From positions 1-38,967 of the forward strand of contig PKTJ01000053.1 of the NCBI GenBank assembly GCA_002869205.1: a stretch of DNA of 38,967 nucleotides, written 5' to 3'. The position numbers were made by a program, and so were the translations under genes. The notes below the pieces were generated by a model. The model saw only the letters and a list, made by a program, of their open reading frames with translations, did no database searches and was not told the DNA's origin. Shown in pieces: positions 1,992 through 9,346 of the stretch (within the stretch, counting starts at the first letter, position 1; each line of letters starts with the position of its first letter). The DNA is from Candidatus Parcubacteria bacterium. GTDB taxonomy: Bacteria; Patescibacteriota; Patescibacteriia; Magasanikbacterales; UBA922.

Positions 1992-2252
1992 ATGTTTTTA
2001 CCATTTTTCATCGTTGTTGTTATTTTTTTCTTGATTAGTTTACGACAAGTTGACCCAGACCAAATAGGCATTGTCTTTCGATTCGGCAAATTCTCAAGAA
2101 TAGTAAACCCGGGTTGGAGAATAGTAATACTATATCTAGAATCGTGCGTCAAAATTAAAAATACAGAAATACTTACAGAAAAACAACTTATGGAATTTAC
2201 TCGGGTAGGGGTTCCACATGAGATTATTGACAAATTAAGAAAAAAAAGCTAA
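1992..2252 (+). CDS. Truncated SPFH/prohibitin-like protein (N-terminal part only)
   Basis: RQVDPDQIGIVFRFGKFSRIVNPGWRIV resembles RQVNEYQRGVKFQLGKFTKIVNPGWRII of the gene at 2421; C-terminus replaced by an unrelated short tail. Confidence 0.6.
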   Translation: MFLPFFIVVVIFFLISLRQVDPDQIGIVFRFGKFSRIVNPGWRIVILYLESCVKIKNTEILTEKQLMEFTRVGVPHEIIDKLRKKS

Positions 2253-2420: not shown

Positions 2421-3170
2421 ATGGCAGCACTCATCCCAATTCTCGTGGTCATAGGTATCATCCTATTGATCAGCATCCGTCAGGTCAATGAATACCAACG
2501 CGGTGTAAAATTCCAACTCGGTAAATTTACAAAAATAGTAAATCCAGGCTGGAGAATCATACTCCCTATCGTCCAAAGCATGGTAAAAGTAGACATGCGT
2601 GTAAAAGCGGTAGATGTACCATTCCAAGAAGCAATCACCAAAGATAATATCCCTGCAAAAATCAATGCAGTAATCTACTACAAAGTAGCTGATGCAGCAA
2701 AAGCAGTGCTTGAAGTAGAAAACTTCTGGTTTGCCGTAAGTCAACTTGCACAAACAACCATGCGTAATGTCGTGGGTGAAATGGAATTAGATGAACTTCT
2801 CGCAAAGAGATTAGAGGCAGCAGAAAAAATTAAAAACATCGTAGACTCAGCTACTGACCCATGGGGAATCAAAGTAGAAAGTGTAGAACTCAAAGATGTT
2901 ATCCTACCAGACAACATGCAAAGAACCATTGCGAAACAAGCTGAAGCTGAACGTGAAAGACGTGCGGTGATTATTAAATCAGAAGGTGAAAAAGCTGCAG
3001 CACAAAACCTTTCTGATGCTGCGGAAATGCTCTCCCAACAAACAGGAGCTCTGCATCTACGTACACTCAACAGTCTCAATGACTTGAGTAGTGACCAATC
3101 AAATACCGTTATCTTTGCGGTACCACTTGAAATATTGCGTGCATTTGAAAAGATTGGTAGTAAACAATAA
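2421..3170 (+). CDS. SPFH/Band 7 (slipin/stomatin-like) membrane protein
   Basis: N-terminal TM, VNPGWRIILPIVQSMVKVDMRVKAVDVPFQEAITKDNIPAKINAVIYYKV, EAERERRAVIIKSEGEKAAA. Confidence 0.9.
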   Translation: MAALIPILVVIGIILLISIRQVNEYQRGVKFQLGKFTKIVNPGWRIILPIVQSMVKVDMRVKAVDVPFQEAITKDNIPAKINAVIYYKVADAAKAVLEVENFWFAVSQLAQTTMRNVVGEMELDELLAKRLEAAEKIKNIVDSATDPWGIKVESVELKDVILPDNMQRTIAKQAEAERERRAVIIKSEGEKAAAQNLSDAAEMLSQQTGALHLRTLNSLNDLSSDQSNTVIFAVPLEILRAFEKIGSKQ

Positions 3171-3215: not shown

Positions 3216-3232
3216 ATATTCAAGTCCGCACT

Positions 3233-3277
3233 GGGGTGGCTAACGGGAATTCCTGCCTGCCGGCAGGCAGGGAACCC
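3233..3277 (-). repeat. Broken tRNA-His copy, 3' (T-arm/acceptor) portion interrupted by a 20-bp palindrome
   Basis: GGGGTGGCTAACGGGAATT...GAACCC matches 3304-3328, with CCTGCCTGCCGGCAGGCAGG inserted. Confidence 0.8.
3252..3271. repeat. 20-bp perfect palindrome CCTGCCTGCCGGCAGGCAGG
   Basis: Self-complementary sequence, inserted relative to the intact tRNA-His copy. Confidence 0.9.
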
Positions 3278-3304
3278 TTTCGTAAATAAAGCAAATCAAA
3301 ATAG

Positions 3305-3379
3305 GGGTGGCTAACGGGAATTGAACCCGTATTGCCGGTACCACAAACCAGAGTAATAACCATTATACCATAGCCACCC
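3305..3379 (-). tRNA. tRNA-His(GTG)
   Basis: Reverse strand GGGTGGCTATGGTATAATGGTTATTACTCTGGTTTGTGGTACCGGCAATACGGGTTCAATTCCCGTTAGCCACCC; anticodon loop TTGTGGT; G-1:C73 pair; CCA not encoded. Confidence 0.85.
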
Positions 3380-3425
3380 CTATTTTGACTTTAAAAAACA
3401 ATATCTCTTGAGTCCAAACATAAAT

Positions 3426-3463
3426 ACAAACCAGAGTAATAACCATTATACCATAGCCACCCC
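3426..3463 (-). repeat. Broken tRNA-His copy, 5' half (acceptor strand to anticodon loop)
   Basis: 38-bp identical match ACAAACCAGAGTAATAACCATTATACCATAGCCACCCC to the intact tRNA-His. Confidence 0.85.
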
Positions 3464-3527
3464 GCTACGGACTTACATTTAGACGAAACAAGTATATACG
3501 AAAATACGCTCTACGTCAAGGAGCCCC

Positions 3528-9165: not shown

Positions 9166-9216
9166 ATAAGGTTATGGGTATTTAGATAATTTGAAGGCTA
9201 TTTAGATTTTACAATA

Positions 9217-9249
9217 AACCCCTCCCGACCTCCCCTATAAGGGGAGGAG
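9217..9249. repeat. Intergenic C/G-tract palindromic repeat, copy C
   Basis: AAACCCCTCCCGACCTCCCCTATAAGGGGAGGA. Confidence 0.7.
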
Positions 9250-9271
9250 CTAATGTATCCAGCCACACTTT

Positions 9272-9307
9272 TACCCCTCCCCCTTGTAGGGGGAGCTGGA
9301 GGGGGTC
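9272..9307. repeat. Intergenic C/G-tract palindromic repeat, copy D
   Basis: ACCCCTCCCCCTTGTAGGGGGAGCTGGAGGGGGTCC. Confidence 0.7.
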
Positions 9308-9346
9308 CATTTTAAAAAACCAAATTTCAATTCCAATAACAAACAA

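Follow-up and report, generated by a model that had tools for sequence, protein, structure and literature searches.

A tRNA-His gene nested in a broken copy of itself in a Patescibacteria genome, most likely a scar of tRNA-gene turnover

Architecture of the tRNA-His locus

We analysed a stretch of 38,967 nt (the window) from the genome of a Candidatus Parcubacteria bacterium (GCA_002869205.1, contig PKTJ01000053.1). One site on its minus strand carries an intact tRNA-His(GTG) gene between two pieces of a second, outer tRNA-His. Read on that strand, the order is a promoter-like sequence, a leader, a 38-nt 5′ half, filler, another leader, the intact gene, its trailer, filler, the hexamer GGGTTC, a palindrome (P20), AATTCCCGTTAGCCACCCC and a trailer. 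The features are listed below, with their evidence in brackets.

3491..3519, minus strand: sigma-70-like promoter, TTGACG - 17 nt - TATACT, upstream of the outer copy (read from sequence)
3464..3474, minus strand: leader of the outer, ancestral tRNA-His, AAGTCCGTAGC, whose AAGTCCG pairs with 3222-3228 (sequence, sister comparison, pairing test)
3426..3463, minus strand: 38-bp 5′ relic from the outer tRNA-His that stops within the anticodon loop; 100% identity to the intact gene (BLAST)
3393..3425, minus strand: AT-rich filler of 33 nt between the 5′ relic and the inner leader (genome match search, GIY-YIG HMM)
3381..3392, minus strand: leader of the inner tRNA-His, AAAGTCAAAATA, which pairs with 3292-3303 (pairing, folding)
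3304..3380, minus strand: intact tRNA-His(GTG), presumably functional (ARAGORN, Rfam)
3292..3303, minus strand: trailer of the inner tRNA-His, TATTTTGATTTG (pairing)
3278..3291, minus strand: filler of 14 nt between the inner trailer and the 3′ relic (genome match search)
3272..3277, minus strand: 6-nt stub GGGTTC of the outer T arm (sequence)
3252..3271, no strand: P20, CCTGCCTGCCGGCAGGCAGG, a perfect palindrome of 20 bp inserted in the outer T loop (sequence)
3233..3251, minus strand: 3′ relic of the outer tRNA-His, with the rest of the T loop and the 3′ strands of the T stem and acceptor; CCA encoded (BLAST)
3222..3232, minus strand: trailer of the outer, ancestral tRNA-His, AGTGCGGACTT (sequence, sister comparison, pairing test)

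The intact minus-strand tRNA-His had been recognised in an earlier note on this DNA. ARAGORN called it at 3304-3377 and Rfam agreed (tRNA model, 58.7 bits); its start is corrected from 3305 to 3304, and the paired G-3..G-1/C73-C75 extend it to 3304-3380. It is the only intact tRNA-His in the whole genome, and presumably it is the working duplicate that supplies the cell. The promoter-like sequence is the only obvious promoter for the locus.

The 5′ half had been described as an identical 38-bp segment that ends in the anticodon loop, and BLAST confirmed it (38/38 positions, E about 5e-14). The acceptor/T-stem piece at 3233-3251 was identical to the intact gene at 19/19 positions (E 5.5e-5). 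Exact tRNA-His repeats of 38 and 19 bp are far above chance expectation. The 3′ T-arm/acceptor fragment of the earlier note has the right coordinates (3233-3277), but it is not a plain T arm, since it is composed of 3233-3251, P20 and the 6-nt stub; the palindrome in its T loop had been overlooked. At the outer T arm, the minus strand reads GGGTTC, the palindrome and AATTCCCG. The outer copy lacks the stretch between about canonical position 36 and the base of the T stem. Neither filler had a convincing match elsewhere in the genome. Between the repeats, the locus has only these short fillers and the tRNA with its flanks, and no gene-sized ORF.

The ancestral copy and the precursor helix

The closest relative among the genomes compared, a sister species of the same genus (G001), has one intact tRNA-His, and its two flanks match the outer flanks of the window. 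Because this single gene carries both outer flanks, the outer copy stands at the ancestral site, and the inner copy is the duplicate. The nested look would follow from any duplication, because the original flanks always end outermost.

The sequences AAGTCCG (3222-3228) and CGGACTT (3468-3474) do exist and are complementary, as had been noted, but the outer extended stem that they were taken to form is not a special feature. The complementarity is kept across species, with AAGTCCG/CGGACTT in the window and AAATCCG/CGGATTT in the sister. For 29 tRNA-His genes and the outer pair of the window, leaders and trailers paired at -9.3 kcal/mol with their own partners and at -3.3 kcal/mol with mixed partners, and none of 20000 permutations was as good. 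The outer helix is thus a normal feature of the tRNA-His precursor in the window's family, kept by covariation. A functional role for the outer helix was considered and rejected, since tRNA-His precursors in the family generally form such a helix.

Across the family, the leader and trailer of pre-tRNA-His (e.g. at L005, L009 and L060) form a helix that is conserved, covaries and reaches up to about 12 bp. Therefore, the encoded CCA of tRNA-His is often paired. The paired CCA and the precursor helix may matter for how RNase P cleaves at G-1.

Two readings of the site had been offered, an insertion or duplication inside a tRNA gene and an unusual split or extended tRNA-like transcript. The first agrees with the single intact gene of the sister species; the second did not hold. 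The 253-nt RNA (3222-3474) does have a stable fold (MFE -106.6 kcal/mol, z -7.1) in which the outer helix encloses the inner tRNA, but this stability comes mainly from the two nested precursor helices. The 3′ anticodon strand and most of the T stem are absent from the outer pieces, one of which has an inserted palindrome, so these pieces cannot form a cloverleaf. Neither the sequence nor the folding of 3222-3474 supports a split or permuted tRNA. Moreover, the relics vary from locus to locus, the outer helix is ordinary, and the sister manages with a single plain gene. It is therefore very improbable that the locus makes a functional tRNA-like transcript of a split, nested or regulatory kind.

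Broken tRNA copies and palindromes in the source genome

The source genome (G000) was assembled from 67 contigs (1,063,116 bp) and is 97% complete. Of its 40 tRNA genes, eight are accompanied by one or more broken copies, with at least ten relics in total, as detected with BLAST cut-offs. They adjoin the intact genes for His (two pieces), Ile, Ser(GGA), Ser(GCT) (two), Glu(CTC), Arg(CCT), Leu(GAG) and Ala(GGC). Most of them are split in a loop by a GC-rich palindrome.

Eight exact copies of P20 were found in this genome, six within tRNA relics and two in loops of REP-like hairpins. By length, only 0.004 copies would be expected in the 520 bp of listed relics. This comparison, like the GIY-YIG counts given below, assumes independent loci, although related genomes are not fully independent; the effects are large enough to leave the conclusion unchanged. 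When 18 palindrome insertions were assigned to loops by eye, 17 lay in tRNA loops or arms, ten of them in the T loop (binomial p about 1e-6); a pattern scan of GTDB genomes (see below) was left out of this count because it was chosen on the T loop.

A REP/RAYT origin of P20 was also considered. It was rejected, as no GTAG/CGTC tag flanks P20 in G000 and no Y1 transposase was found there. The RAYT/Y1 transposase family PF01797 was absent in G000, G001 and G007, and present in G006.

Another perfect palindrome, CCCCGATGTACATCGGGG, lies near the 5′ end of the RNase P RNA gene (L102 223-240; G000 C24:41422-41439). It is nearly identical to the palindrome of the tRNA-Ala relic.

Several relics differ between the source genome and its sister. 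Arg(CCT) and Glu(CTC) have a broken copy in G000 and a single intact gene in G001, whereas Leu(CAA) is broken in G001 instead. The Leu(GAG) relic is downstream in G000 and upstream in G001, with different hairpin splits. At Ser(GCT), one relic is common to both genomes and the other is unshared. The differences at Arg, Glu, Leu and Ser look like independent events that are still going on.

The same layout in other genomes

Broken tRNA-His copies recur in about ten relatives. BLAST found them beside the intact gene in G010, G016, G018, G019, G021, G036, G062 and G066, and a further one in G030 was seen by eye only. In G016, G036, G062 and G066, the 5′ relic just upstream of the intact tRNA-His has a T-loop hairpin. 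G016 also retains a trace of the outer 3′ end and hence is nested like the window, and in G036 the 5′ flank is repeated along with the gene. Small ORFs lie between the broken and the intact tRNA-His in G021 (L055, 134 aa) and G010 (L056, 85 aa). These two ORFs matched no Pfam or NCBIfam model above the cut-off and gave no GIY-YIG match; the one in G021 had a single weak PADLOC match (PDC-S35, E 4e-5).

A scan of GTDB genomes for the T-loop-plus-P20 pattern returned 11 stretches. Nine of them resemble tRNA relics, and just upstream of most of these nine lies an intact tRNA of the same kind. They span Patescibacteria of several lineages and Flavobacterium, and in Flavobacterium a GIY-YIG ORF lies nearby. 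Over many tRNAs and genomes, the recurrent layout is a 5′ tRNA piece (usually with a loop hairpin), a short filler, an intact tRNA and sometimes a 3′ piece.

The source genome is fragmented and probably metagenome-assembled, and repeats as short as 19-38 bp might be misassembled. However, the probability of such an artefact seems negligible, because equivalent but differently sequenced arrangements are present in about ten related genomes. The same layout was also found at other tRNAs of the source genome and in named GTDB records of other groups.

The relics might also be attL/attR-like scars left by tyrosine-recombinase elements that had integrated in tRNA genes and were afterwards reduced by deletion to a few dozen bases. 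Williams is said to have reported in 2002 that integrase sublocations in tRNA genes include the anticodon loop and the T loop, which would match the breakpoints here. A Xer-type recombinase lies 1.3 kb away, and exact direct repeats of tRNA parts (38-bp and 19-bp) do exist at the window. Partial tRNAs beside intact ones are a known product of integrative elements (attR; PMC9897764). However, many of the present relics are 5′ halves rather than the usual 3′ halves, the intervening DNA is only tens of bases at most loci, and no integrase was seen between the copies. The palindromes at the breaks would also be left unexplained. We consider this origin improbable.

GIY-YIG genes beside tRNA genes

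Because the Flavobacterium records had small GIY-YIG ORFs at the relics, we examined free-standing GIY-YIG genes in the order to which the window genome belongs. The sample comprised 75 loci, the 35 best matches and the next 40 listed. Among these best 75 listed loci, 22 had a tRNA or tmRNA gene no more than 350 bp away. In 20 of these cases both genes were on the same strand, in 14 the distance was at most 10 bp, and in 13 the neighbouring tRNA was accompanied by a relic of itself. The other GIY-YIG genes of this sample, about 70%, lay away from any tRNA.

The usual order was a 5′ tRNA piece with a loop palindrome, a few more tRNA nucleotides, AT-rich filler, the ORF (about 80-90 aa), 0-9 bp and the intact tRNA. 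At L309, the GIY-YIG gene sits between the relic and the intact tRNA-Ser. In G000, a GIY-YIG ORF extends into the intact tRNA-Ala, and a palindrome-bearing relic comes after that gene. Several of the GIY-linked 5′ relics end near position 37-38, as does the 5′ relic of the window. The tRNA-His layout is that of the GIY-YIG loci without the ORF: an HMM search of 30 tRNA-His loci, the window and its fillers included, found no GIY-YIG ORF or remnant.

A rival explanation is that tRNA genes were plainly duplicated in tandem and then decayed, and palindromes merely inserted where damage was tolerated. The Leu(GAG) relics lie on opposite sides in G000 and G001 with different hairpins, as if either copy can die. 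In addition, the 5′ flank of G036 was repeated together with the gene, and relics adjoin intact copies. Against this, the stubs past the hairpin are mostly short (about 4-10 nt) and are followed by unrelated filler, P20 is concentrated in relics, and at many loci GIY-YIG genes are exactly between the relic and the intact copy. Taken alone, tandem duplication and decay seems a rather doubtful explanation. Its probability overlaps with that of the explanation given below, because tandem duplication is a step in it.

A possible mechanism and its relation to known systems

The window locus is most likely an ORF-less scar of tRNA-gene turnover. Duplication linked to a mobile element, together with the insertion of a palindrome, probably explains it. 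That a GIY-YIG nuclease was the actual driver at this locus can be suggested only tentatively. The ancestral single-copy tRNA-His gene was probably duplicated in place; one copy (3304-3380) remained intact, and the other was broken, with a 5′ half and a 3′ end left over, and took up the mobile palindrome P20 in its T loop. With a GIY-YIG driver, the nuclease would have cut the resident gene in its loops, repair would have duplicated it, and the palindrome would disable, and perhaps immunise, the broken copy. The window copy might have lost its GIY-YIG ORF later or never had one.

The observed parts of this model are the ancestral outer site, the duplicate inner gene, the T-loop palindrome of the broken copy, the recurrence and the architecture of tRNA, GIY-YIG gene and relic. 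There are counterpoints: the 5′ relic of the window has no palindrome, none of the 30 tRNA-His loci showed a GIY-YIG ORF or remnant, and a large share of the GIY-YIG genes is not near a tRNA. On a wider scale, GIY-YIG genes and short palindromes may form a mobile system that invades the tRNA genes of Patescibacteria (and Flavobacterium), of which the window would be an ORF-less footprint; this is possible, but we would not call it probable.

The cutting and duplication steps have a direct precedent in SegB of T-even phages, a free-standing GIY-YIG homing endonuclease encoded between tRNA genes. It spreads the tRNA region: it promotes the inheritance of that region and the tandem amplification of tRNA plus segB (PMC2988022, PMC13096335). 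The likeness is a free-standing GIY-YIG gene beside tRNA genes; such an ORF is absent at the window locus and present at Ala in G000 and at the 22 tRNA- or tmRNA-adjoining loci among the best 75 listed. Unlike SegB, the present cases are in bacterial chromosomes, involve many tRNA species and putative nucleases, and have relics with loop palindromes. Rickettsia palindromic elements (RPE) and other REPs are also short mobile palindromes, some of them inserted inside genes, and REPs sometimes lie within other palindromes (PMC2229807, PMC3733652). The Rickettsia palindromes occur inside tmRNA and RNase P RNA genes (PMC2229807). P20 is likewise a short mobile palindrome, but it is 20 bp long, has no GTAG tag and lies in tRNA loops beside an intact copy. 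From attR fragments, the present loci differ in their frequent 5′ halves, spacers of tens of bases, palindrome at the break and lack of an integrase between the copies.

Our literature search, which had little reach into subscription journals, returned no account of palindrome-broken tRNA relics recurring beside intact copies and no description of bacterial GIY-YIG genes between a relic and an intact tRNA. Within that partial literature, there are precedents both for fragments of tRNA genes beside intact ones and for palindromes within RNA genes, and their recurrent combination with GIY-YIG genes is apparently new. If the model is true, free-standing GIY-YIG nucleases, a common small gene family of Patescibacteria, would be tRNA-gene parasites that drive duplication and replacement, and they would act in streamlined cells with mostly single-copy tRNA genes. 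The model would also account for palindromes in tRNA-like wreckage and supply empty and filled sites for comparison. Annotators would be warned that such relics are not extra tRNA genes.

Other features of the window and the source genome

A truncated SPFH/Band 7 ORF (86 aa; window 1992-2252), with 48% identity over 54 aa to the full one, lies directly upstream of tRNA-Arg(TCT) (2270-2344), and the full SPFH gene follows at 2421-3170. This is another case of partial duplication around a tRNA gene. At 9208-9318, the window has a large GC-rich double hairpin (CCCCTCCCGACCTCCCC...GGGGGAGCTGGAGGGGG), whose Rfam matches were all below threshold. A group I intron (Rfam RF00028) was found in a second tRNA-Asn in both species, at L081 3-339 (G000 C19) and L120 847-1183 (G001 C13), with 90 and 87 bits. 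The intron-bearing tRNA-Asn lies at a contig end in G000, and in G001 it adjoins a further tRNA-Asn relic with a hairpin.
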